This document shows, in pieces, positions 47,513 to 60,327 of a stretch of DNA of 64,000 bases. Every line of letters begins with the position of its first letter. The first letter of the stretch is position 1. The stretch comes from Oceanicola sp. 22II-s10i (GTDB lineage: Bacteria; Pseudomonadota; Alphaproteobacteria; Rhodobacterales; Rhodobacteraceae): positions 408,501-472,500 of the forward strand of contig NZ_AQQU01000001.1 in assembly GCF_002210105.1 (NCBI RefSeq), read 5' to 3'. The notes below the pieces were generated by a model. It was not told the origin of the DNA. It searched no databases and was given only the letters and a program-made list of their open reading frames with translations. The position numbers were made by a program, and so were the translations under genes.

Positions 47513-48541
47513 TCAGACCGTCTTGGCCGCCGCCAGACCCGCCTCGGCAAAGCGCGGCACGCCTTCGGCGGCCGTCTTGGCGCGTTGCGGGTTCGAGGCG
47601 GTGCCGTCGATCAGCCGCTTCTTGATGCCCTGCAGGATGCCCGCCATGCGGAAGCAGGTGAAGGCGAGGTAGAAGCCGAACTGCGGAATCTCGGGAATAC
47701 CGGCGTATTTGCAGTAGGTGGCGATGAATTCCTCATCTTCCATCACGTTGGTTTCCTTGCGGTTCACGCCCGCAAGGCCCCGGCTGGTCGGCGGCATGCC
47801 CCACTGCATGACCACGGCGGCCACGTCGGCATAGGGATGGCCGGTGGTCGACAGCTCCCAGTCCAGCACCGCGACGCAGCGCGGGTCGGTCTTGTGGAAC
47901 AGCATGTTGTCGATCCGGTAGTCGCCATGCGCCAGCGTGCGCAGGCCGTCCTCGGCCGGGATGTTGGCGGCGAGCCATGTCATCAGCTCTTCCATCGCGG
48001 GCTGATGGTCGGTCTCGGAGGCGCGGTACTGCTTGGTCCAGCGGCCGATCTGGCGTTCGTAATAGTTCCCCGCCGGGCCGTAATCGGACAGGCCGACGGC
48101 GTCGACATCGACCGCGTGGATGCAGGCCAGAACCCGCGCCATCTCCTCGTTGATCAGCCTGCGCTGCTCGCGCGGGACGTCGGGCATGTCGGGGGCCTGG
48201 ATGTTACGGCCCTCGACCGCCTCCATGATGTAGAACATCGAGCCGAGGACATCGTCGTCCTCGCAGAGGGTGTACATCTTGGCGACCGGCACCTCGGTGT
48301 CCCAGAGCGCCGACTGCACCCGGAATTCGCGGTCGACCGCGTGGGCCGATTTCAGCAGCTGCCCCGGCGGCTTGCGGCGCAGGACGTACTGGCCCGAGGG
48401 GCTGGTCAGCTTGAAGGTCGGGTTCGACTGGCCGTTGTCGAACTTCTGCGCGGTGAGCGGGCCCTGGAAGCCGGGAATGGTCCTGGCCATGTAGGCCTCG
48501 ACCGCCGCGGTATCCAGCTTGGTGGGATCTGAATTGGCCAT
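47513..48541 (-). CDS. Phosphotransferase family protein, ACAD10/11 kinase-domain type
   Basis: 342 residues, aminoglycoside phosphotransferase (APH) fold. The P-loop-like region [19 protein letters not shown], Lys in YVLRRKPPG, the catalytic loop [14 protein letters not shown] and the metal-binding [18 protein letters not shown] are those of the kinase domain of ACAD10/ACAD11 and of bacterial LvaA-like enzymes. These are reported to phosphorylate 4-hydroxyacyl-CoA so that a partner acyl-CoA dehydrogenase can eliminate phosphate. Two such dehydrogenases lie upstream. Confidence 0.88.
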
Positions 48542-48552
48542 CCTCTCCTCCC

Positions 48553-49221
48553 TCAGGAATAGGTCAGCATCTCGGCTTCGTTCGAAGCGTCGATATGGGG
48601 GGTTTCGTTGAACCCGTGCAGGTACGAGTTGTTCGCCGAATAGACTATCCGGTTCACCGCGCAGTTCTTCATCTGAAGCTGCAATTTCACCTGCGTGAGC
48701 GGCGGCGCGTCCAGAAGGCGGGCGATCATCTGGCCGATGGCCCCGCCGGAGGACACGGCCAGCACCGTCTGCACACCCTCGCGCATGCACAGGCGGCGCG
48801 CATCCTCGACCCGGTCGCGGAACGCGCCGTAGGTTTCGTAGGGATCGGGGATCTCGTCCCGGTGCCATTCCTGCACGACGTCGCGCAGGGTGCGGAAATA
48901 GGTGCGGCGGTCGATCGGCGTCTTGGGGACCAGCCCTGCCGCCTTCAGCTTGGCGGCGTTGAGCGCACCGAAATCGTATTCGTTGAGGCCCGCATGGACC
49001 TCGGGGGTGACGCCTTCGACGCCCATGCCCTGCATGATGCCGGCCATCGTCTCGCGGTGGCGGCGCATGTCGCCCATGATCCACGCGTCGGGCGTCACGC
49101 CCTGCGAAGCCAGCGCGCGGCCGACGGCCTCGGCCTGCTTGTGTCCGGTGGGAGAGAGGACGTCGTAGTCGTCGGCGCCGAAGGACGCCTGTCCGTGACG
49201 GACGATATAGAGGGTCGCCAT
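48553..49221 (-). CDS. Histidine phosphatase (phosphoglycerate mutase-like) protein
   Basis: 222 residues. The catalytic [10 protein letters not shown] (RHG motif, His near residue 9), the second Arg in GDMRRHRET, Glu in LNEYDFG and the second His-like position in [11 protein letters not shown] (Ser-Gly-Gly, usually SHG) are visible; the canonical second His seems replaced by Ser, which may lower phosphatase activity. Encoded within the acyl-CoA catabolic run, 11 bp from the kinase gene. Confidence 0.85.
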
Positions 49222-49286
49222 GGTCTTCCTTCATCAAGACCCCGCCGCGCGGGGTGGCGCGGCGGGGGCAGTCGTTCAACCGGGGA

Positions 49287-50489
49287 TCACAGGACCTCGA
49301 ACAGGCCCGCAGCACCCATGCCGCCGCCGACGCACATGGTGCAGACGACGTATTTCGCGCCACGGCGCTTGCCCTCGATCAGCGCGTGGCCGACCATCCG
49401 GGCCCCGGACATGCCGTAGGGGTGGCCGATCGAGATCGCGCCGCCGTTCACGTTCAGCTTGTCCATCGGGATGCCGATGACCTTGGCCGACTGCAGAACC
49501 TGGCAGGCGAAGGCCTCGTTCAGTTCCCACAGGTCGATGTCGTCGACCTTGAGCCCGTGCTTGGACAGCAGCTTCGGCACGGCGTAGATCGGGCCGATGC
49601 CCATCTCGTCCGGGTCGAGGCCCGAGGCCATCATGCCGACGTAGCGGCCGAGCGGCTGCAGGCCGCGCTTCTCGGCTTCCTTGGCTTCCATCACGACGGC
49701 GGCGGATGCGCCGTCCGACAGCTGGGATGCGTTGCCGGCGGTGATGAACTTGCCTTCCTTCACGACCTGCCCGTCCTTGAAGACCGGCTGCAGCTTGGCC
49801 AGATCCTCGGCGCTGGTGCCGGGGCGGTTGCCCTCGTCCTTTTCCAGCGTGACCTTCTTCATCGAGACTTCCTTGGTCTCCTTGTCGACCACGGCCATGG
49901 TGCTTTCGAACGGCACGATCTCGTCGTCGAACTTGCCGGCCTGCTGCGCGGCGGCGGTGCGGGCCTGCGACTGCGCGGAATACTCGTCCTGCTCGTCACG
50001 GGACACGCCATAGCGGTCCGCCACGATCTCGGCGGTTTCCAGCATCGACATGTAGAGCGACGGCAGATGCTCCACCAGCCACGGGTCGGTGCGGCGGTCG
50101 GTGCGCATGTTCTGGTTCTGGACGAGGCTGATCGACTCCACCCCGCCGCCGACGGCGATGTCCATGCCGTCGTACAGAACCTGCTTGGCCGCCGTGGCGA
50201 TGGCCATCATGCCGGACGCGCACTGGCGGTCCATCGACATGCCGGACACCGAGGTCGGCAGACCGGCCCGCATTGCCGCCTGACGGCCGATGTTGCCGCC
50301 GGTGGAGCCCTGCTGGAGCGCCGCGCCGATGATGCAATCCTCGACCTCGCCGCCTTCCAGGCCGGCGCGGGCGACGGCGTTCTTCACGGCATGGCCGATC
50401 AGTTCCTGCGCCTGTGTGTTGTTGAACGCACCGCGAAAGGCCTTGCCGATCGGGGTCCGTGCCGTTGAAACGATAACTGCGTCACGCAT
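49287..50489 (-). CDS. Acetyl-CoA C-acyltransferase (thiolase)
   Basis: 400 residues. Nucleophilic Cys90 lies in [31 protein letters not shown] (His) and [13 protein letters not shown] (second Cys) complete the site. It cleaves 3-oxoacyl-CoA to acetyl-CoA and a shortened acyl-CoA, the last beta-oxidation step. It is cotranscribed with SDR, hydratase and dehydrogenase genes. Confidence 0.95.
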
Positions 50490-50504
50490 TGTGGGTCTCC
50501 TCTC

Positions 50505-51434
50505 CTATTCCTTGCTTTCCAGCTTGATGCCGCGCTTTTCGGCGGCCATCCGCGCGTATTTCCGGGTCTGGGCGAAGGCGCCCGGCATGACCTCCTGTCC
50601 GGCTTCGCTGCGGATGTCGTCCATCCGGGCGGCGATGCTGTCGGGGTCGAGTTCGTCATCGCCGAAGGCCACGCCCTGCGTCTCGTAGATCCGCGTCTCG
50701 GCAAAGCAGCCGCCGCCCGCGCCGAGGATCATCCGCGTCGGCGCGTCCTCGTGCAGCAGCGTCAGCAGGCCGGGGGTGATCGTCTGGGGGCCGAGCAGGT
50801 CCATGATCTGGTCGGGCAGCAGGCCCTCGGTCATCCGGGTCGCCGCCGTGGGGGCGAGGATGTTGGCCTTGATGTTGTACTTCTGGCCTTCCTGAACCAG
50901 CACGTTCATCAAGCCGACCAGCGCCGCCTTGGCGGCACCGTAGTTCGACTGGCCGAAGTTGCCGTACAGGCCCGAGGCCGAGGTGGTGTAGACGATCCGC
51001 CCGTATTCGTTCTGGCGGAAATGCTCCCACAGGGCCTTGGTCGGCACGACGGAGCCCATCAGGTGGACGTCCAGCACCTTGCGGAAATCGTCCAGCTCCA
51101 TCTTGATGAAGGTCTTGTCGCGCAGGATGCCCGCGTTGCAGACGAGGATGTCGACCTTGCCCCACTTGGCGATGGCCTGATCGACCATGTCCTGCACCTG
51201 CGCCGGATCGGTGACGTTCGCGCCATGCGCCATCGCCTCGCCGCCCATCTCCTCGATCTCGCGCACGACCGACAGGGCGGCCTCGCTGGACTGGCCGGTG
51301 CCGTCCGTCGAGACGCCCAGATCGTTGACCACGACCTTGGCGCCCCGCTCGGCCAGCCCGAGCGCATGGGACCGTCCGAGGCCGATCCCGGCCCCGGTCA
51401 CGATGGCGACACGTCCGTCGAACCTGATCGTCAT
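50505..51434 (-). CDS. SDR oxidoreductase, MFE-2-like 3-hydroxyacyl-CoA dehydrogenase type
   Basis: 309 residues. VAIVTGAGIGLGRSHALGLA then AKVVVNDLGVSTDGTG is the long N-terminal variant seen in the (3R)-hydroxyacyl-CoA dehydrogenase part of peroxisomal multifunctional enzyme 2. NAGILRD, TSASGLYGNFGQSNYGAAKA supply Asn, Ser, Tyr, Lys. It probably oxidises the 3-hydroxyacyl-CoA made by the adjacent MaoC hydratase, whose stop overlaps its start (ATGA). Confidence 0.9.
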   Translation of the reverse strand: MTIRFDGRVAIVTGAGIGLGRSHALGLAERGAKVVVNDLGVSTDGTGQSSEAALSVVREIEEMGGEAMAHGANVTDPAQVQDMVDQAIAKWGKVDILVCNAGILRDKTFIKMELDDFRKVLDVHLMGSVVPTKALWEHFRQNEYGRIVYTTSASGLYGNFGQSNYGAAKAALVGLMNVLVQEGQKYNIKANILAPTAATRMTEGLLPDQIMDLLGPQTITPGLLTLLHEDAPTRMILGAGGGCFAETRIYETQGVAFGDDELDPDSIAARMDDIRSEAGQEVMPGAFAQTRKYARMAAEKRGIKLESKE

Positions 51435-51892
51435 TGCGCGGCCTCCGCGAAATAGCGGCGGCCCAGCCATTCGGCGACCAGCGCGGGCTTCGTCGCGCCC
51501 TCGATCTCGACGGTGACGCCCATGGTCGTCTGGATTTCGTTCGGGCCCTTGTCCTCGACCGCGAGGATCGTGAACACGGCGCGCACCTTGGCGCCTTCCT
51601 TCACCGGAGACACGAAGCGCACCTTGTCGAAACCGTAGTTCACGCCCATCACGACGCCGTCCACCTTGGGGCCGCCGTCGTAGACCATCGCGCTCAGCAT
51701 CGACAAAGTCAGGAAGCCGTGCGCGATGGTGGTCCCGAAGGGCGTGGCCTTGGCCTTTTCCGGATCGACGTGGATGAACTGCCAGTCCTCGGTGACATCC
51801 GCGAATTGGTCGATCCGGCTCTGGTCGATCAGGAACCACCTGGAGGTCCCGACCTCCTTGCCGATCATGCCCTTCAGGTCTTCTCTGTTCAT
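51431..51892 (-). CDS. MaoC family (R)-specific enoyl-CoA hydratase
   Basis: 153 residues, hotdog fold. The hydratase motif FADVTEDWQFIHVDPEKA contains the catalytic Asp and His (D-x4-H), followed by TTIAHGFLTLSML. It hydrates enoyl-CoA to a (3R)-hydroxyacyl-CoA. Overlaps both neighbours (TGATG and ATGA), so it is tightly coupled with the two SDR genes. Confidence 0.94.
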   Translation of the reverse strand: MNREDLKGMIGKEVGTSRWFLIDQSRIDQFADVTEDWQFIHVDPEKAKATPFGTTIAHGFLTLSMLSAMVYDGGPKVDGVVMGVNYGFDKVRFVSPVKEGAKVRAVFTILAVEDKGPNEIQTTMGVTVEIEGATKPALVAEWLGRRYFAEAAQ

Positions 51893-52731
51893 CAGTCGTC
51901 GTCCACCACGGTTGTTGCCTTGACTTGATCGTAGGGCACGGGGATGCCCGCGTTCGCGCCGCCCGCGATCGGGATCGTGTGCCCGGTCACATAGGCGCCC
52001 GCGCGCGAGGCAAAGTAAAGCACCGCGCCCTGGATGTCCTCCGGCGTGCCGACCCGGCCAAGCGGCAGGTTCTTGCCCGCGCGCTGCTTCTGTTCCTCGG
52101 TCCCGATGGCGAAGGCCATCATCTTGGACATGAACGGCCCCGGCGCGATGGCGTTGACCGTGATGTGCTCGGGCGCCAGACGGCCCGCCAGCGACTCGGT
52201 CATGAAATGCACCGCCGCCTTGGAGACGGAGTAGCTGAACGCCTGCCCGCCGCGCGGCTGCCAGCCGCCGATCGACCCGGTGTTGATGACCCGCGCCGGA
52301 TCCTCGGCCGTGCCCGCCGCGCGCAGCAGCGGCAGCAGCTTCTGGGTCAGGTGGAACATGCCGGTGACGTTCACGTCCATCACCCGGCTCCAGCCCTCCC
52401 ACGGGAATTCCTCCAGCGGCGCGCCCCAGGTCTTGCCGGCGTTGTTCATCAGGATGTGCAGCTTGTCGGTGCGCTTCTTGACCTCTTCGACCAGCGCCTC
52501 GACGCCTTCCATGCTGCCGACGTCACCGGCAAAGCCCTCGGCCTTGCCGCGCAGGCCCAGCTTGTTCAGCTGTTCCGCCGCGCCTTCGCAGCTCTTGGCC
52601 TTGCGCGAGGCGATCATCACGTCGCAGCCCGCGCCCATCAGGCCCTCGGCGGCCATGTAGCCGATGCCGGTCGCTGCGCCGGTGATCAGGGCCTTCTTGC
52701 CGGTCAGGTCGAACAGTTTGTCAGGGGTCAT
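51892..52731 (-). CDS. SDR family oxidoreductase
   Basis: 279 residues. ALITGAATGIGYMAAEGLM (NAD(P) site), NNAGKTWGAPLEEF, NTGSIGGWQPRGGQAF and YSVSKAAVHFMTE give the Ser-Tyr-Lys set. The APLEEFP segment resembles the RhlG-like SDR group. It may act on a hydroxyl or keto group of the substrate before or after beta-oxidation. ATG 52731 follows a GGAGGAGAA-type site a little far upstream, so the start is moderately certain. Confidence 0.9.
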   Translation of the reverse strand: MTPDKLFDLTGKKALITGAATGIGYMAAEGLMGAGCDVMIASRKAKSCEGAAEQLNKLGLRGKAEGFAGDVGSMEGVEALVEEVKKRTDKLHILMNNAGKTWGAPLEEFPWEGWSRVMDVNVTGMFHLTQKLLPLLRAAGTAEDPARVINTGSIGGWQPRGGQAFSYSVSKAAVHFMTESLAGRLAPEHITVNAIAPGPFMSKMMAFAIGTEEQKQRAGKNLPLGRVGTPEDIQGAVLYFASRAGAYVTGHTIPIAGGANAGIPVPYDQVKATTVVDDD

Positions 52732-52762
52732 TCCTCGGATTCTCCTCCCGTGCGGGTCCTCC

Positions 52763-53884
52763 TCAGAACCCGCGTGCGCGGGCGACCCGCGCGGCATGAT
52801 ACCCGTAGTCGCCCAGCCATTCGGCGCCCACGCGGGCGCGTTTCATGAAGAAGCCCATGTCGAACTCGTCGGTCATGCCGATCCCGCCGTGCATCTGCAC
52901 ACCCTCGCTGACCGCCAGCTTCGCGGTCTTGGTGGCGCGGGCCTTGGCGACCGACACGGCGAGGTCCGACTCGTCGGGCGTCTCGTCGAGGACCCTACCG
53001 GCATTGGCGATGGCAGAGGCAGTCACTTCGATCTCGCTCCACATATGTGCCGCGCGATGCTGGAGCGCCTGGAACGTGCCGATGATGACGCCGAACTGCT
53101 TGCGTTCCTTGAGGTATCCGGCGGTCATCGCGAAGGCCCCGGCGCTGAGGCCGGTCAATTCCGCAGACAGGGCCGCCTGCCCCGCATTCAGCGCGCGCGC
53201 CACGGCAGCCATGCCGCCGTCGACCTCGCCCACGACGTCGTCGCCGGTGGCGTCCACGCCGTCAAAGTCGATCTGTGCGAAGTCGCGGCTGTCCACCATG
53301 TCCTTGCGGTCGCGGCTGATCCCGGCGCGGCCGGCGTCGAGGTCGAACAGCGTCAGCCCCTCGGCCTCGCCCGCGCTGCCGCCCGTGCGTGCCAGCACAA
53401 GAACACGGTCGGCGGACGATCCGTCGGCCACGAAGACCTTGCGGCCCGACAGCTTGAAGGCGTTGCCGCTGCGCGAGGCGGTCATGGCAGTCCGGGCGGG
53501 ACCGAACTTGGCCCCCTCGTCGATGGCCAGCGCATAGAGGGTGGAGCCGTCGGCGATCCCCGACAGCCGGTCCGAGGCCGCGTTCCGCAGCGCCGTCGCC
53601 GCGATCACGGCGGACGAGATGAAGGGCGAGGCGACCAGCGTCTGGCCCATTTCACCGGCAAGGATCCCCGCCGCGCGGTGGCCCATGTCGGACCCGCCCG
53701 CCTCTTCCGAGACCAGCACCCCGGCCCAGCCCATCTGGGCCATTTCCTTCCACAGCCCGGTGTCGAAGGGCCGGCCCGCATCGCGGTTCTCGCGCAGGTT
53801 CTTCACCGGCGCGGCGTCGTCCAGAAACCCCCGCGCGCTGTCGCGCAGCATGGTTTCGTCTTCGGTCAGCATCAGCGTCGTCAT
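52763..53884 (-). CDS. Acyl-CoA dehydrogenase family protein (smaller subunit type)
   Basis: 373 residues. It keeps the acyl-CoA dehydrogenase layout (N-terminal helices, central beta domain with RKVFVADGSSADRVLVLAR, C-terminal helices ending GYHAARVARARGF) and has QMHGGIGMTDEFDMGFFMKR, but the FAD-binding central motif is weaker than in its partner. Paired adjacent ACAD genes of this kind form heterotetramers in steroid-type pathways. Encoded nine bases after the second ACAD gene. Confidence 0.88.
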   Translation of the reverse strand: MTTLMLTEDETMLRDSARGFLDDAAPVKNLRENRDAGRPFDTGLWKEMAQMGWAGVLVSEEAGGSDMGHRAAGILAGEMGQTLVASPFISSAVIAATALRNAASDRLSGIADGSTLYALAIDEGAKFGPARTAMTASRSGNAFKLSGRKVFVADGSSADRVLVLARTGGSAGEAEGLTLFDLDAGRAGISRDRKDMVDSRDFAQIDFDGVDATGDDVVGEVDGGMAAVARALNAGQAALSAELTGLSAGAFAMTAGYLKERKQFGVIIGTFQALQHRAAHMWSEIEVTASAIANAGRVLDETPDESDLAVSVAKARATKTAKLAVSEGVQMHGGIGMTDEFDMGFFMKRARVGAEWLGDYGYHAARVARARGF

Positions 53885-53893
53885 GTCAGGCCC

Positions 53894-55102
53894 TCACTTA
53901 CTCGGCAGTTCGAGAACACGTTTCGAAATGATGTCCAGCATCACCTCGCTCGTGCCGCCCTCGATCGAGTTGGCCTTGGTGCGCAGCCATTCCGGCGACA
54001 GCGTGCCGTAGGGCCCGTCCCATTCCGCGCCGAACGCGCCGGTGGCCGACATCAGCATTTCGTACCGCCGCTTGTTCAGCTCGGTCCCGTAATACTTCAG
54101 CATGGCGCTGGCATTGCCGACGCCGCCCGCCTTGGCCATGTCGCGGTAGCGTTCGATCGTCATGCCCATGGCAAGGCTGTCGACCTCCAGCTCCATCGCC
54201 TCGGTGCGGATGACCGGATCGTCCATCACGGCCTCGTCCAGCGAACCGAGGAACTGCCCCAGCGACCGACCGCCCAGCACGCCGCCGATGCTGCCGGAGC
54301 CGCCGCCACCGCCGATCATCGTGCGTTCGTGGGTCAGCAGGTGCTTGGCCACGTCCCAGCCACGGTTCACCTCGCCCACGACCGACGACAGGCCCTCGCC
54401 ATAGCTCTTGGGGACCTTCACATTTTCAAAGAAGGTCTCGCAGAACGGCGACCGGCCCGAGATCAGCTTGATCGGCTTGGTCGACACGCCTTCGGAGGTC
54501 ATGTCGATCAGCATGAAACTGATGCCCTTGTGCTTGGGCGCCTCGCGGTCGGTGCGGACCAGCGCGAAAATCCAGTCGGCGTGGTTGGCGTAGGAGGTCC
54601 AGATCTTGGAGCCGTTCACCAGCCAGTGGTCGCCCTTGTCCTCGGCCTTGGTCTGCACGCCGGCCAGATCCGACCCCGCGCCCGGCTCGGAGTAGCCCTG
54701 GCACCAGCGGATTTCGCCGCGGGTGATCTGCGGCAGGAAGTGTTTCTTCTGATCCTCGGTCCCGAAGGCCAGCAGCGCCGGCCCGAGCATCCACAGCCCG
54801 AACGACTCGAGAGGCGAGGGCGCCTTGGCCTTCGCCATCTCCTCGCGGAAGATCTTCTCCTGCTCGCGCGACAGCCCGGCGCCGCCATAGGCCTCGGGCC
54901 ATCGGGGCGCGGTCAGGCCGACAGATGCGGCGGCATTCATCCAGTCGCGCTGTGCGTCCGAGGAAAACTCGAACCGCTTTCCACCCCAGCAGATCTCGCG
55001 CTGGTCGGCGGGCATTTCACGAAGAAATGCAGGACAGTTTTCGGAAATGAAGTTAGAAACTTCGGTACGGAAGATGTCCGGATTCTCGTTGAAACGCGAC
55101 AT
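53894..55102 (-). CDS. Acyl-CoA dehydrogenase family protein (larger subunit type)
   Basis: 402 residues. GYSEPGAGSDLAGVQTKAED and NGSKIWTSYANHADWIFALV are FAD- and substrate-binding blocks; ALLKYYGTELNKR-type sequence (ASAMLKYYGTELNKRRYEM) and the C-terminal SIEGGTSEVMLDIISKRVL match FadE28/FadE29-like and LvaC-like dehydrogenases. It is the promoter-proximal gene of the catabolic run. Transfers electrons to ETF. Confidence 0.92.
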   Translation of the reverse strand: MSRFNENPDIFRTEVSNFISENCPAFLREMPADQREICWGGKRFEFSSDAQRDWMNAAASVGLTAPRWPEAYGGAGLSREQEKIFREEMAKAKAPSPLESFGLWMLGPALLAFGTEDQKKHFLPQITRGEIRWCQGYSEPGAGSDLAGVQTKAEDKGDHWLVNGSKIWTSYANHADWIFALVRTDREAPKHKGISFMLIDMTSEGVSTKPIKLISGRSPFCETFFENVKVPKSYGEGLSSVVGEVNRGWDVAKHLLTHERTMIGGGGGSGSIGGVLGGRSLGQFLGSLDEAVMDDPVIRTEAMELEVDSLAMGMTIERYRDMAKAGGVGNASAMLKYYGTELNKRRYEMLMSATGAFGAEWDGPYGTLSPEWLRTKANSIEGGTSEVMLDIISKRVLELPSK

Positions 55103-55245: not shown

Positions 55246-56481
55246 ATGAAAAACTTCAAGCGTGCCGTTCTCGCGGCATCCGTTTCCGTTGTCGCTATGG
55301 CATCCGCCGCAGCGGCCGACGTCAAGGTTGCATTCATCGACCCGCTGTCCGGACCGTTCGGTCCGTCGGGCGATGCAGCCTTCACATCCTACAAGCTGGC
55401 GTTCGAGCATCTGAACGCAAATGGCGGCCTGAACGGGGAGCAGGTCGAACTCACGGGCTACGACAACAAGGTCAGCCCCAAGGAATCGCTGGTCCAGCTT
55501 CAGAAGGCCATCGACTCCGGCGCGAAATACATCTTCCAGGGCAACGGCTCGTCCGTGGCCGCCGCGATCATCGACGCGGTGAACAAGCACAACGCCCGGA
55601 ACCCCGGTGACGAGGTGCTGTTCCTGAACTACGCGGCCGTCACGCCCGCCTTCACCAACGAAGCCTGCTCGTTCTGGCACTTCCGCTTCGACGCGCATGC
55701 CGACATGAAGATGAACGCGATCACCGACTGGATCGGGACCCGCGATGACATCAAGAAGGTATACCTGATCGGTCAGGACTATATCTTCGGCGAAGCCGTG
55801 GCCGCGGCCGCGTCCTCGCAGCTGGCGGAGAAGACCCCGAACGTCGAAATCGTCGGCAACGAACTGCACCCGCTGGGCAAGGTGAAGGACTTCACCCCCT
55901 ACATCCAGAAGATCCAGTCCTCTGGCGCGGATGCGGTCATCACCGGCAACTGGGGTCAGGACATGACCCTGCTGGTCAAGGCGGCGGCCGACTCCGGCCT
56001 CAAGATCCCGTTCCTGACCTTCTACGGCGGCTCGCTCGGCGCGGTTGCCGCGCTCGGCGAAGGCTCGATCGACACCCTCTACCAGGTGTCCGAAGGCATC
56101 ACCAACATCGACGCCGGCGAAGAGCAGAACAAGCTGATCGAGGAATACAAGGAACGCTTCCCCGATTACGACTACTACTACCACCGTGCCTTCGTGGCCG
56201 TGGACATGCTGGCGGCAGCGGCTGAAAAGGCCGGGTCGACCGACGTGATCCCCGTCGCCAAGGCTCTGGAAGGCCTGACCGTCGAAGGCGCATACGGTCC
56301 CGTGACCATGCGTGCCGAAGACCATCAGGCACAGCAGAACCTCTACATCTCCACCGTGTCGAACGACGTCAAATACGGCGTCGACAACATCGAACTCGGC
56401 TGGAAGCTGGTGGACAACGGCACCATCGAGGCCGCATCGGCCGAAGAGCCGACCACCTGCAAGATGGAACGCCCGGAGTAA
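55246..56481 (+). CDS. Branched-chain amino acid-type ABC transporter substrate-binding protein
   Basis: 411 residues, periplasmic. Signal peptide KRAVLAASVSVVAMASAAAA (cut near residue 24), then VKVAFIDPLSGPFGPSGDA, the Peripla_BP_6/LivK fold with LIGQDYIFGEAVAAAA and AVITGNWGQDMTLLVKAA. It delivers a ligand to the LivHM-like permease. The ligand is unknown; the divergent acyl-CoA genes suggest an organic acid. Strong GGGAGGA ribosome site. Confidence 0.95.
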   Translation: MKNFKRAVLAASVSVVAMASAAAADVKVAFIDPLSGPFGPSGDAAFTSYKLAFEHLNANGGLNGEQVELTGYDNKVSPKESLVQLQKAIDSGAKYIFQGNGSSVAAAIIDAVNKHNARNPGDEVLFLNYAAVTPAFTNEACSFWHFRFDAHADMKMNAITDWIGTRDDIKKVYLIGQDYIFGEAVAAAASSQLAEKTPNVEIVGNELHPLGKVKDFTPYIQKIQSSGADAVITGNWGQDMTLLVKAAADSGLKIPFLTFYGGSLGAVAALGEGSIDTLYQVSEGITNIDAGEEQNKLIEEYKERFPDYDYYYHRAFVAVDMLAAAAEKAGSTDVIPVAKALEGLTVEGAYGPVTMRAEDHQAQQNLYISTVSNDVKYGVDNIELGWKLVDNGTIEAASAEEPTTCKMERPE

Positions 56482-56597
56482 GTCCGGCGTCCTGACAGGG
56501 CTCTGACAGGGGCGTCACGTTCAGACCGGGCGTGGCGCCCCGATTGCTCGGGGCATAGGGGATTTGCAGACGGCCTTCGGGGCCGACGGGGAAGATC

Positions 56598-57530
56598 ATG
56601 GAAACGATCGTATTCTCCCTGCTGAACGGCACGATCTACGGGCTATTGCTCTTCATGCTGTCCAGCGGGCTGACGCTCATCTTCTCGATGATGGGCGTTC
56701 TCAACTTCGCACATGCGAGCTTCTACATGCTCGGTGCGTATTTCGCCTATACCATCATGGGCGTCACCAATTTCTGGCTCGCGCTGTTCCTCGCGCCGAT
56801 CCTTGCCGGCGTCATCGGCATGGGTGTCGAGAAATGGGGCCTGCGCAAGGTCCACGCGAATGGCCACGTCGCGGAACTGCTGTTCACCTTCGGGCTGGCC
56901 TACCTGATCGACGAGATCGTCAAGATCATCTGGGGCCGCGTCTCGGTGAACTACCAGGTGCCGGACTCGCTGAACTTCACGCTGTTCACGATCTACGGCT
57001 CTGACTACCCGGCCTACCGGATCTTCATCCTGTTCGTCGCGATCTTCATGCTCGTGTCGCTGTGGTATCTGCTCAAGAAGACCCGCGTCGGCCTGATCAT
57101 CCAGGCGGCGCTGAGCCATCCCCACATGGTCGGCCACCTCGGCCATAACGTGCCGCTGGTGTTCATGGGCGTTTTCGGCGCGGGCTGCGCGCTGGCGGGC
57201 CTCGCCGGGGTGATCGGCGGCAACTACTTCATCACCGACCCCGCTATGGCGGTCCAGATGGGACCGATCGTCTTCGTGGTGGTCGTCGTCGGCGGCCTCG
57301 GCTCGCTCGAAGGGGCCTTCATCGCGGCGATGCTGATCGGCCTGCTGCAGACCTCGGCCGTTTCGGTCAATGCGAGCTTCGCGGACATCTTCGGTTTCCT
57401 CGGCCTCTCAGCCACCTCCGAAGTCGGCTCGATCACGATCTCCTCGCTCGCGCCGATGCTGCCGTTCCTGCTGCTGGTGCTGATCCTGATCGTGAAGCCC
57501 ACCGGCCTGATGGGGGACCGTGAAGTATGA
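56598..57530 (+). CDS. LivH-type ABC transporter permease
   Basis: 310 residues, about eight helices. GLTLIFSMMGVLNFAHASFY is the diagnostic LivH segment, and VVVVGGLGSLEGAFIAAMLI the conserved coupling region. Ends with a four-base overlap (ATGA) with the LivM-type gene. Forms the inner-membrane channel with it. Confidence 0.95.
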   Translation: METIVFSLLNGTIYGLLLFMLSSGLTLIFSMMGVLNFAHASFYMLGAYFAYTIMGVTNFWLALFLAPILAGVIGMGVEKWGLRKVHANGHVAELLFTFGLAYLIDEIVKIIWGRVSVNYQVPDSLNFTLFTIYGSDYPAYRIFILFVAIFMLVSLWYLLKKTRVGLIIQAALSHPHMVGHLGHNVPLVFMGVFGAGCALAGLAGVIGGNYFITDPAMAVQMGPIVFVVVVVGGLGSLEGAFIAAMLIGLLQTSAVSVNASFADIFGFLGLSATSEVGSITISSLAPMLPFLLLVLILIVKPTGLMGDREV

Positions 57531-58792
57531 CCGACATGACCATGCAATCCACGGCCCTCGGGCCGACCTCGGCGGAGAAGTTCCGCCAGCGGGTCCTGCC
57601 CTTCGTGTTGTTCGGGCTCGTCCTCGCGATCATCCCGTTCTTCGGGCCGTCGCGGACGACGATGACCCTGCTGAACCACATCGGGATCAACATCGTCTTC
57701 GCGCTGGCCTACAACATGCTGCTCGGCCGTGCGGGGCTGCTGTCCTTCGGCCACGCGGTCTACCTCGGCCTCGCCGGCTACTTCTGCGTCCATATCCTGA
57801 ACTGGATCGACGCGGCGGATGGCGGGTTCTGGGGCAACCTGCCCGTGTTCTCGCTGCCGATCTGGGGCTTCGCCATGGGCGCGCTGGCCGGTGCGGTCAT
57901 CGGCTGGCCGTCGTGCCGCCGCGCGGGCACGGCCTTTGCCATGATCTCGCTGGGCGTGGCGGAACTGATGGCGGCCGCCGCCTTCATGTTCGACTCGCTC
58001 TTCGGGGGCGAGATGGGCATCTCGGGCGACCGCATGTCAGGGCCGGAGTTCCTGGGCATGAGCCTCGGGCCGCTCGACGAAGTCTACTGGTTCGTCGCCT
58101 TCTGGACCTTCGTCGGCGTCGTCGCGATGTTCATGTTCACGCGCACCCCGCTGGGCAAACTGTCCGAAGCGACGCGCGACAACCCGGAACGAGTCCAGTT
58201 CATCGGCTATGACCCGACCCGCGTCCGCTACCTCGTCTTCATCTTCTCGGCGGCCTTCGCGGGCATGGCGGGCGGCATGGCGGCGGTGCAGGACGAGATC
58301 TTCACCCCGGAATCCATGTCGCTGATCCCCTCGGGCGCGATCCTGATCGCGGCCTACGTGGGTGGCATCCGCTATTTCAGCGGGCCGATCATGGGGGCGA
58401 TCCTGATGACCTGGATGAGCTCGAACCTGTCGGACTACACCGTCGGCTGGCTGCTCTACCTCGGCCTGATGTTCATCACCGTGGTGATGTTCGTCCCGGA
58501 CGGGATCGCGGGCCTCGTCTTCGGCTTCTGGAACGGCATACGGTCGCCGAACCGGAGCCATCTGATGGCGAAGTGGGCGCAGCAGGCCGTCGGCGTGGCG
58601 CTGATGATCGTGTCGATCATCGTCATCGTCGAAGTCGCCTTCCGCTGGTCCGAAGGCTACGGCGAGGTGTTCGAGCCATGGGGCATGGAACTGCCGCATG
58701 ACGGTGTGATCACATGGCTGCTGGCCATCGTGCCGCTGGCCCTCGGCGTGGCGCTGCTGCGCCGCGTCGCCCGCAAATCCGAGGAGGTCTGA
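57527..58792 (+). CDS. LivM-type ABC transporter permease, C-terminally extended
   Basis: 421 residues, longer than the usual 320-350. LALAYNMLLGRAGLLSFGHA and the AAFAGMAGGMAAVQDEIFTP segment are LivM signatures. After the conserved core the protein continues about 80 residues with two extra helices (VGVALMIVSIIVIVEVAF and WLLAIVPLALGVALL), an unusual extension. Confidence 0.94.
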   Translation: MTDMTMQSTALGPTSAEKFRQRVLPFVLFGLVLAIIPFFGPSRTTMTLLNHIGINIVFALAYNMLLGRAGLLSFGHAVYLGLAGYFCVHILNWIDAADGGFWGNLPVFSLPIWGFAMGALAGAVIGWPSCRRAGTAFAMISLGVAELMAAAAFMFDSLFGGEMGISGDRMSGPEFLGMSLGPLDEVYWFVAFWTFVGVVAMFMFTRTPLGKLSEATRDNPERVQFIGYDPTRVRYLVFIFSAAFAGMAGGMAAVQDEIFTPESMSLIPSGAILIAAYVGGIRYFSGPIMGAILMTWMSSNLSDYTVGWLLYLGLMFITVVMFVPDGIAGLVFGFWNGIRSPNRSHLMAKWAQQAVGVALMIVSIIVIVEVAFRWSEGYGEVFEPWGMELPHDGVITWLLAIVPLALGVALLRRVARKSEEV

Positions 58793-58795
58793 GCC

Positions 58796-59569
58796 ATGAC
58801 AACACCCGCGCTCAAACTCACCAACGTCCACAAGAGCTTTGGCCCCGCCAAGATCATCCAGGGCGTCAACCTCGAGATCGCCAAGGGCGAACGCCACGCG
58901 ATCATCGGCCCTAACGGCGCCGGCAAGTCGACGCTCTTCAACCTCGTGTCGGGGCTCTACACCCTGTCCGAGGGGCAGGTGGAACTGAACGGCGCCGTCA
59001 TTTCAGGCAAGAAGCCGTTCGAGATCAACCGGATGGGCCTGTCACGGTCGTTCCAGGTCTCGAACATCTTCTCGAACATGTCGGTCCGGGAAAACGTCCG
59101 CTGCGGCGTGCTCTGGTCGCTGGGCTACGGCTATTCGTTCCTGCGCAATGTCGGCAACCTGAAGGAGGTGCAGGAAAAGACCGCGCACATCCTGAACGAG
59201 GTCGGCCTCTTGGACAAAGCCAACCTGCCCGCCGCGCTTCTGCCCTATGCCGACCAGCGCACGCTGGAAATCGCGATCACCATCGCGGGCGGGGCCGAGG
59301 TCATCATGCTGGACGAACCGACCGCCGGCATGTCGCATTCGGAAACCGACCGCGCCGTGGCGCTGATCGAGAAGGCGACCAAGGGCAAGACGCTGCTGAT
59401 CGTGGAGCACGACATGGGCGTCGTCTTCGGCCTCGCCGACCGCATCTCGGTGCTGGTTTACGGCGAGATCATCGCGACCGGCAAACCGGAGGAGATACGG
59501 GGCGATCCCAAGGTGCGCGAGGCCTATCTGGGCGAGGAAGCCGACGAGATCGAAGGAGCATCCGCATGA
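58796..59569 (+). CDS. LivG-type ABC transporter ATPase with degenerate signature motif
   Basis: 257 residues. Walker A GPNGAGKST (38-46) is canonical, Walker B is VIMLDEP with Glu174, and the switch His205 is in IVEHDMG. The signature motif, LSYGEQ in ordinary LivG, reads LPYADQ (149-154): Ser to Pro and Gly to Ala. This loop completes the ATP site of the partner subunit, whose Walker A is itself altered. Three bases after the permease gene, overlapping the next ATPase. Confidence 0.95.
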   Translation: MTTPALKLTNVHKSFGPAKIIQGVNLEIAKGERHAIIGPNGAGKSTLFNLVSGLYTLSEGQVELNGAVISGKKPFEINRMGLSRSFQVSNIFSNMSVRENVRCGVLWSLGYGYSFLRNVGNLKEVQEKTAHILNEVGLLDKANLPAALLPYADQRTLEIAITIAGGAEVIMLDEPTAGMSHSETDRAVALIEKATKGKTLLIVEHDMGVVFGLADRISVLVYGEIIATGKPEEIRGDPKVREAYLGEEADEIEGASA

Positions 59570-60327
59570 CCGATTTCCACGTCGACACGGCCCACAAGCC
59601 GGACGTCACCCCGCCCCCGGCGGGCGAGCCGATGCTGGCCGTCACCGATCTGCACGCCTATTACGGCAAGTCCCACGTCCTGCACGGGGTCAACATGCAG
59701 ATCATGCCGGGCGAGGTCATCGCCCTGCTGGGCCGCAACGGGGTGGGCCGTTCCACCACCGCCAAGGCGATCATGGGCGAGGTGCCCCCGGTCGGCTCCG
59801 TCCGGTTCAAGGGGCAGGAGATCGGCGGCATGCCGAACCACAAGATCGCCCGCCTCGGCCTTGGCTACGTGCCGGAAAGCCGGGACATCTTTCCGACCAT
59901 GACGGTCAGGCAGAACCTGATGCTGGGCATCAAGGACCTGCGCAATCCGGGCAAGTACACGGTCGACCAGATGCTCGACATGTTCCCAAACCTGCGTTCG
60001 CGGGCGGACAACATGGCGGGCGTCCTTTCGGGCGGTGAAAAGCAGATGCTGACCATGTGCCGGACCCTGATGGGCGATCCGGAACTGATCATCATCGACG
60101 AACCGACCGAGGGCCTCGCGCCCAAGATCGTGCAGCAGGTCGGCGAGATGATCGCCGAGATCGCCAAGTCCGGCGTGTCGATCCTGTTGGTCGAACAGAA
60201 GCTGTCGATCGCGCTCAAGATCGCGGACCGGGTCTATGTCATGGGCCATGGCGAGATCGTCTATTCGGGCACACCCGAGGAGTTCAAGACGCGCGAGGAT
60301 GTCCGCAAGGAATGGCTCGAGGTATAA
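59566..60327 (+). CDS. LivF-type ABC transporter ATPase with Lys-to-Arg Walker A
   Basis: 253 residues. Walker A reads GRNGVGRST (56-64), with Arg62 in place of the nucleotide-binding Lys; codon CGT at 59749-59751 region. The signature LSGGEKQ (154-160) and Walker B IIIDEP with Glu179 are intact; the switch position is Gln211 (VEQ), common in LivF. An N-terminal extension of about 20 residues (VDTAHKPDVTPPPAG) is unusual. ATGA overlap with LivG. Confidence 0.95.
   Translation: MTDFHVDTAHKPDVTPPPAGEPMLAVTDLHAYYGKSHVLHGVNMQIMPGEVIALLGRNGVGRSTTAKAIMGEVPPVGSVRFKGQEIGGMPNHKIARLGLGYVPESRDIFPTMTVRQNLMLGIKDLRNPGKYTVDQMLDMFPNLRSRADNMAGVLSGGEKQMLTMCRTLMGDPELIIIDEPTEGLAPKIVQQVGEMIAEIAKSGVSILLVEQKLSIALKIADRVYVMGHGEIVYSGTPEEFKTREDVRKEWLEV

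Follow-up and report, generated by a model that had tools for sequence, protein, structure and literature searches.

The window, a stretch of 64,000 nucleotides from Oceanicola sp. 22II-s10i, stems from a genome that is close to Pseudooceanicola as judged from its best named similarity matches. Positions 55246-60327 are occupied by an operon of the LIV type, which encodes, on the plus strand, a periplasmic substrate-binding protein (55246..56481; Pfam PF13458 Peripla_BP_6, E 2.7e-79), a LivH-like permease (56598..57530; Pfam PF02653 BPD_transp_2, E 1.1e-28), a LivM-like permease (57527..58792; PF02653, E 6.4e-30), and two ATPases, one LivG-like (58796..59569) and one LivF-like (59566..60327). 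With this gene content, in which both permeases belong to PF02653, the set expected of a LIV importer is complete.

Genes and sequence motifs at the locus

Both ATPases match PF00005. The LivG-like protein additionally contains the C-terminal domain PF12399 (48.5 bits at a cut-off of 25.5), and its best NCBIfam models, UrtD and LivG, are both below their cut-offs; the nearest solved relative of the LivF-like protein, in sequence as well as in fold, is Thermotoga 1JI0. Against the curated equivalog models, LivF reaches 175.7 of the 441 bits needed for NF008626 and LivG 183.6 of the 362 bits needed for NF008449; by these sub-cut-off scores, the pair is to be classified as a homologous subfamily and not as the E. 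coli orthologue. Scores of 196.3 bits with the UrtD model TIGR03411 (304.1 needed) and of 231.1 bits with the UrtE model TIGR03410 (285.8 needed) place it outside the urea transporters, and the presence of LivG and LivF as two genes distinguishes it from RbsA-type fused ATPases, where two ATPase domains reside in one polypeptide.

Divergent from the operon, a cluster resembling acyl-CoA degradation genes is located on the minus strand (47513-55102). Read by eye, its genes resemble those for acyl-CoA dehydrogenases (two), for short-chain dehydrogenases, for a MaoC-like hydratase, and for a thiolase. Matches to an acyl-CoA dehydrogenase or thiolase were found by tblastn beside 9 of 20 subfamily operons, with some of the regions shortened by contig ends (L314, L316, L317, L320, L321, L323, L328, L329, and L330). 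These neighbouring genes hint at another carboxylate substrate: in place of a branched-chain amino acid, the importer may take up a carboxylate that is broken down as its CoA ester.

The two ATPases have opposite equipment. LivG combines a canonical core, consisting of the Walker A motif GPNGAGKST (residues 38-46; 58907..58933), the Q-loop Gln87, the catalytic Walker B residue Glu174 and the switch His205 (59408..59410), with the noncanonical signature LPYADQ (149-154; 59240..59257), in which Ala152 (codon 59249-59251) replaces the second Gly of LSGGQ. LivF, conversely, has the canonical signature LSGGEKQ (154-160; 60025..60045) on a noncanonical core: its Walker A motif GRNGVGRST (56-64; 59731..59757) carries Arg62 (codon CGT, 59749-59751) in the position of Lys, the Q-loop residue is Glu104 (59875..59877), and Gln211 (60196..60198) occupies the switch position, while the catalytic Glu179 (60100..60102) is retained. 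Translation confirmed position and frame of the LivG motifs as given in the first-pass annotation, together with Arg62, Gln211 and LSGGEKQ of LivF; Glu104 and the retained Glu179 are two further features, absent from that annotation. For LivF, an ordinary ABC ATPase fold is predicted (mean pLDDT 86.4), with the helix following the P-loop present and 1JI0 as the best PDB match (TM 0.85 by query length).

With the window LivF as reference, 102 similar loci were gathered (29 + 73), mostly from Rhodobacteraceae and other Alphaproteobacteria and, in a few cases, from Beta- and Gammaproteobacteria, according to the record titles. Walker A is not part of the patterns by which the 73 were found. A complete LivF/LivG pair was obtained from 97 of these loci (none from L031, L083, L088, L092, and L096), and all 97 (78 distinct) combine Arg in LivF with a LivG signature devoid of the Gly, which is replaced by Ala (82), Pro (8) or Ser (7). 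Compared with four relatives, LivF shows dN of 0.032-0.079 and dS of 0.456-0.857 (dN/dS about 0.05-0.12), and LivG, compared with two relatives, dN of 0.053-0.065 and dS of 0.516-0.579 (dN/dS about 0.10-0.11); by these ratios, both genes are under purifying selection. The agreement of all 97 relatives and the purifying selection rule out a sequencing error, a chance finding or a pseudogene. The Arg codons of 107 distinct Arg-bearing subfamily-like genes are CGC (54), CGT (26), CGG (24), CGA (2), and AGG (1); these genes, like the 107 pairs with Arg and a Gly-less signature counted below, were selected for Arg and carry no information on reversal.

Distribution of the altered residues among LivF/LivG pairs

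According to the available part of a published account, one domain contributes its Walker motifs plus the A-, Q-, and H-loops to an ABC site, and the other domain contributes the signature (PMC7756269). Pairs for a wider survey were drawn from the similarity-gathered loci, from an Arg-pattern search of 398 genomes (47 matching), and from a LivF profile search of 60 genomes (36 matching). Matches to the Arg pattern were used as leads only, as a reversed control pattern also matched some genomes and some matches were not LivF. To be counted as a pair, a LivF needed a LivG on its own strand at a distance of at most 400 bases; frames lacking one, in some cases owing to a short stretch, were dropped (29 of 283 LivF-like frames; 37 of 298 in the tree set). 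The resulting 133 non-redundant pairs (<80% LivF identity) are mostly proteobacterial and enriched for Arg.

The composite site of LivG core and LivF signature is constant in these pairs: Q-loop Gln, catalytic Glu and switch His of LivG as well as Ser-Gly-Gly of the LivF signature occur in 133/133 each, and the LivG Walker A Lys in all 130 readable cases (3 of 133 unread). Changes concern the other composite site. The LivF switch residue is Gln in 123 pairs, Lys in 10 and His in none; the Q-loop residue is Glu (115), Gln (16) or Asp (2), so that Gln is missing in 117; the Walker A residue is Lys in 77 and Arg in 56 of these Arg-enriched pairs; and the fourth residue of the LivG signature is Gly (84), Ala (36), Ser (5), Pro (5), or, once each, His, Ile and Lys. 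Elsewhere, the LivF pocket is kept, with the A-loop Tyr in 132/133 and Walker B Asp and Glu in 133/133.

These counts change the weight of individual residues. Gln211, which had been regarded as special, turns out to be general for LivF, and in LPYADQ, which had been singled out as an odd signature, Ala152 is indeed unusual and Pro150 is ordinary (Pro in 40/133 pairs). Being common, the switch Gln and the signature Pro were discarded as distinguishing features; since both are ordinary, Arg62 in LivF and Ala152 in LivG are, at the level of the residues compared, the changes that set the window pair apart.

A second sample of 80 pairs, composed of the profile-search loci and 80 hand-taken regions among the best matches listed, with the own genome excluded, contained Lys in 77 and Arg in 3 of the LivF Walker A motifs, a slight undercount of Arg given that at least one Arg/Ala place (L137) was omitted. 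The signature Gly of LivG was present in 70 of the 80; Lys, Gln, Glu and His of LivG and the LivF signature were found in 80/80, and the LivF switch His in 0/80. This layout recurs, with Lys and Gly retained, in single examples from E. coli K-12, Deinococcus, Chloroflexota and the haloarchaeon Haloterrigena, and Thermotoga 1JI0 agrees at the Q-loop and the switch. The losses are nested: in the 120 pairs of the tree set described below, His is absent from 120, Gln from 104, Lys from 43 and the signature Gly from 40, and all 43 pairs that lack Lys lack Gln and His as well.

In sum, noncanonical residues are confined to one composite site, with the pairing of the halves taken from the general ABC dimer, and the Walker B Glu is present as Glu179. 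This distribution suggests that degeneracy on one side characterizes the sampled family as a whole and not just the window pair, the window transporter being an extreme form. The earlier view that LivG Walker A and LivF signature form a canonical site opposite a degenerate one is thus well supported by sequence, and the asymmetry ascribed to this LIV pair is present; it is wider than had been assumed, extending across the 133 sampled pairs. The degenerate-site reading is, accordingly worded, likely right, but as a family trait and not as a peculiarity of the window pair.

Several variants were observed alongside. One LivF clade (L002, L188, L216, L217, and others; 10/133 pairs) has Lys for the switch Gln (IDKN, VDKN). 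In L242, L243, L258, L278, L281, L284 and L287, which fall into one region of the tree, LivG has lost the signature Gly and LivF has kept Lys; in the LivG proteins of this L242-L287 group, the Walker B Glu is followed by Val, Ser, Thr or Trp, a second style of decay of the altered site. Least degenerate are L008, L257 and L290, which we take to be urea-transporter-like, with LSGGQKK in the LivG-like partner, a Q-loop Gln in LivF and only the switch His missing. Furthermore, an exporter-like ABC protein with Walker A GRNGAGRST and signature LPT[SA]FRQ was encountered (L177, L178, and L180), whose neighbour in L178-L180 has GDSASGKST or GESASGKST and LSGGVKQ; by these motifs, the L177-L180 proteins look like another degenerate pair with a Lys-to-Arg change.

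Co-occurrence of Arg62 with the loss of the signature glycine

The first-pass annotation had suggested checking whether Walker A Arg and a signature of the LPYAD type occur together across genomes, and had named uncorrelated single changes as evidence to the contrary. Within the subfamily, the co-occurrence is strict, holding for the 97 similarity-gathered pairs, for 31/31 rows of the subfamily clade on the tree, and for 20/20 subfamily pairs found with a profile in 249 genomes, which overlap the Arg-pattern genomes. It is not general: among 224 distinct pairs, a count enriched for Arg, 107 have Arg with Ala, Ser or Pro, 27 Arg with Gly, 81 Lys with Gly, and 9 Lys with another residue. On account of the 27 and 9 single-change pairs, a general coupling of Arg with signature loss is unsupported; the degenerate-site reading is left untouched by them.

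A quick maximum-likelihood tree was calculated from both proteins of 120 pairs (<75% LivF identity) with the motif columns removed. Rows with Arg and a Gly-less signature form a single group (31 rows, SH-aLRT 100), and those with Arg and Gly a separate one (12 rows, SH-aLRT 97), nested among Lys rows of like LivG signature. Arg changes twice on the tree and the signature position at least five times, some of the latter possibly being regains; at one of the two Arg origins, the Gly is lost as well. Pairs with Lys and no signature Gly occur in about three places as judged by eye (L264; L269; the L242-L287 group). On this tree, the joint state is stable but traces back to one event.

It is conceivable that Arg62 and Ala152 compensate each other, i.e., that each has been selected owing to the other. 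The strict joint occurrence in the 97 similarity-gathered and the 20 profile-found pairs speaks in favour of this, as does the gap around the subfamily: the 41 matches listed from the profile search of the 249 genomes comprise 20 subfamily members, down to 341.6 bits, and 21 others, from 293.7 bits, and the nearest outsiders, of which 10 out of the 21 listed were read, are Lys and Gly in 10/10. Among these 41 matches, with 10 of the 21 outsiders read, no intermediate linking the subfamily to its closest relatives was found. However, the joint state arose in a single event, the other Arg origin has retained its Gly, the Gly has been lost beside Lys in about three other places, and a test on independent pairs, which needs at least six informative pairs, found two only (p = 1) and thus had little power to show coupling, lends no support. 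We therefore consider mutual compensation unlikely.

Proposed roles of the two ATP sites and relation to known transporters

LivF and LivG would pair head-to-tail, as in the general ABC dimer, into an ATPase with two unlike sites. Site 1, for which LivG supplies the Walker A motif, the Q-loop, the catalytic Glu and the switch His, and LivF the signature, is canonical and most likely performs the ATP hydrolysis that drives import. Site 2, comprising Arg62, Glu104 and Gln211 of LivF and Ala152 of LivG, is altered at four usual contacts; hydrolysis of ATP there is most likely very slow or absent, and the site may retain its nucleotide for most of the cycle, thereby clamping the dimer. Of the contacts of site 2, the switch His is lacking from all sampled pairs and the Q-loop Gln from most; Arg62 and the loss of the signature Gly were added in the subfamily. 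We regard it as quite probable, from the residues conserved, that the LivG site accounts for most of the ATP hydrolysis and that the LivF site acts as a slow clamp. That the LivF site would hold ATP in this manner is deduced from its conserved A-loop Tyr, Walker B Asp and Glu, and P-loop glycines; among 22 subfamily LivF selected for their similarity, neither Arg62 nor Asn58, Thr64 and the P-loop glycines vary, and this invariant P-loop, the predicted intact ABC fold and the purifying selection indicate that site 2 is maintained. With Glu179 retained, slow hydrolysis at site 2 is possible. Replacement of the Walker A Lys by Arg does not completely abolish nucleotide binding in some P-loop proteins. 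A further point against this reading is that in Pdr5 and others, little changed when individual motifs of the degenerate site were altered (excerpted text of PMC7756269); function cannot simply be read off from motif changes. Measurements on the window pair or its subfamily were not found in searches of the open-access literature.

Alternatively, both sites might hydrolyse ATP in a nearly symmetric action, with Arg62 and Ala152 tolerated and Gln standing in for the switch His. The catalytic Glu, present in every sampled LivF, fits this possibility, and Arg-bearing LivF of clade B and their Lys sisters have LivG partners with similar signatures (LSYGRKR type), as though either residue could serve in that clade; moreover, site NBS2 of ABCC1 still transported with Gln for the H-loop His, as stated in the accessible text of PMC7756269. 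Tolerance, however, predicts some changes on the other site as well, and in the 133 pairs they are restricted to one; nor does any Lys row occur within the 31-row subfamily clade. The chance that both sites work is, in our estimate, small.

Equally small is the chance that site 2 binds no nucleotide, in which case the LivF half would be structural or regulatory and one ATP per cycle would close the dimer. From general ABC knowledge, Lys-to-Arg and loss of the signature Gly would both weaken contacts with ATP, and the comparable site of RbsA has been called, on the basis of its sequence, incompetent for ATP binding and hydrolysis in the part of PMC11466899 that is accessible. Against an empty site stand the near-universal A-loop Tyr and the universal Walker B Asp and Glu of the sampled LivF, together with P-loop glycines and Thr64 that are invariant in 22/22 subfamily members.

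The closest parallels to the LivF/LivG site layout are found in E. coli K-12 RbsA, MglA and AraG, whose motifs were in part read by eye from sequence. Their second nucleotide-binding domains (NBD2) resemble LivF in having Arg in Walker A (GLMGAGRTE, GLVGAKRTD, and GLVGAGRSE), a Q-loop Glu, no switch His, the catalytic Glu, and the signature LSGGNQQ; their NBD1 resemble LivG in having Lys, Gln and His, the signature being altered (LSIGDQQ, LSVSQMQ, and LSIGQWQ). They differ in that both ATPase domains reside in one protein, that Glu or Asp follows the Walker A Ser/Thr, that the switch residue is Ser where LivF has Gln, and that NBD1 of RbsA and AraG, unlike the window LivG, keeps the second signature Gly. 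A 39-sequence tree that includes a single long outgroup places LivF with NBD2 and LivG with NBD1 (97/83 without and 94/87 with the motif columns); the asymmetry may, consequently, be ancient and shared by LivF/LivG and the RbsA-type domains, as far as this small set can tell. In plain BLAST, the window LivF scores slightly higher with NBD1 (77-92 bits) than with NBD2 (70-77 bits), which argues against a simple equation of LivF with NBD2. For B. subtilis RbsA and NupO, degeneracy is already in print (available part of PMC11466899).

The human sterol exporter ABCG5/G8 has a site in which an Arg-bearing Walker A of ABCG8 (GSSGCGRAS) meets an altered ABCG5 signature (ISTGE), as given in the accessible portions of PMC7756502 and PMC7756269; it is reported in the former as inactive for hydrolysis. 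ABCG5/G8 is an exporter of another ABC type, and we do not propose that the pattern has a shared origin. Judged by these motifs, the Lys-to-Arg pattern is thus known already from RbsA-type proteins and ABCG5/G8, and the LivF/LivG pair of the window is a variant of it; a description of a degenerate LivF/LivG site was not found among the papers listed from open-access PMC, within the portions of those texts available. E. coli LIV-I shares with the window the operon type, Glu (Q-loop) and Gln (switch) in LivF, and Gln and His in LivG, but has Lys in LivF (GANGAGKTT) and Gly in LivG (LAYGDQR). In TAP, CFTR, TM287/288 and the ABCC family, too, a canonical composite site is paired with a degenerate one. 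The accessible text of PMC7544095 names loss of the catalytic Glu as a hallmark of such exporters; in contrast, LivF keeps this residue in all 133 pairs.

Tentatively, and with somewhat more doubt than confidence, we propose that the PF02653-permease importers of bacteria and archaea, i.e., those of the LIV, urea, and RbsA-type sugar kind, derive from one ancient asymmetric ATPase pair and work with a single hydrolytic site, the other site being an ATP-binding clamp that has been worn stepwise—His, then Gln, then Lys and the signature Gly—with the window subfamily as an end point. If this were true, LIV importers would constitute a large importer family with a single working site, and nature would offer in them a series from which the worth of each catalytic residue could be read. 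Work on degenerate ATP sites has mostly dealt with exporters. A common importer family with graded wear of one site and the Glu kept would make the role of the second site testable across natural variants, and LivF and LivG would not be interchangeable in models of the ATP used per transported molecule.
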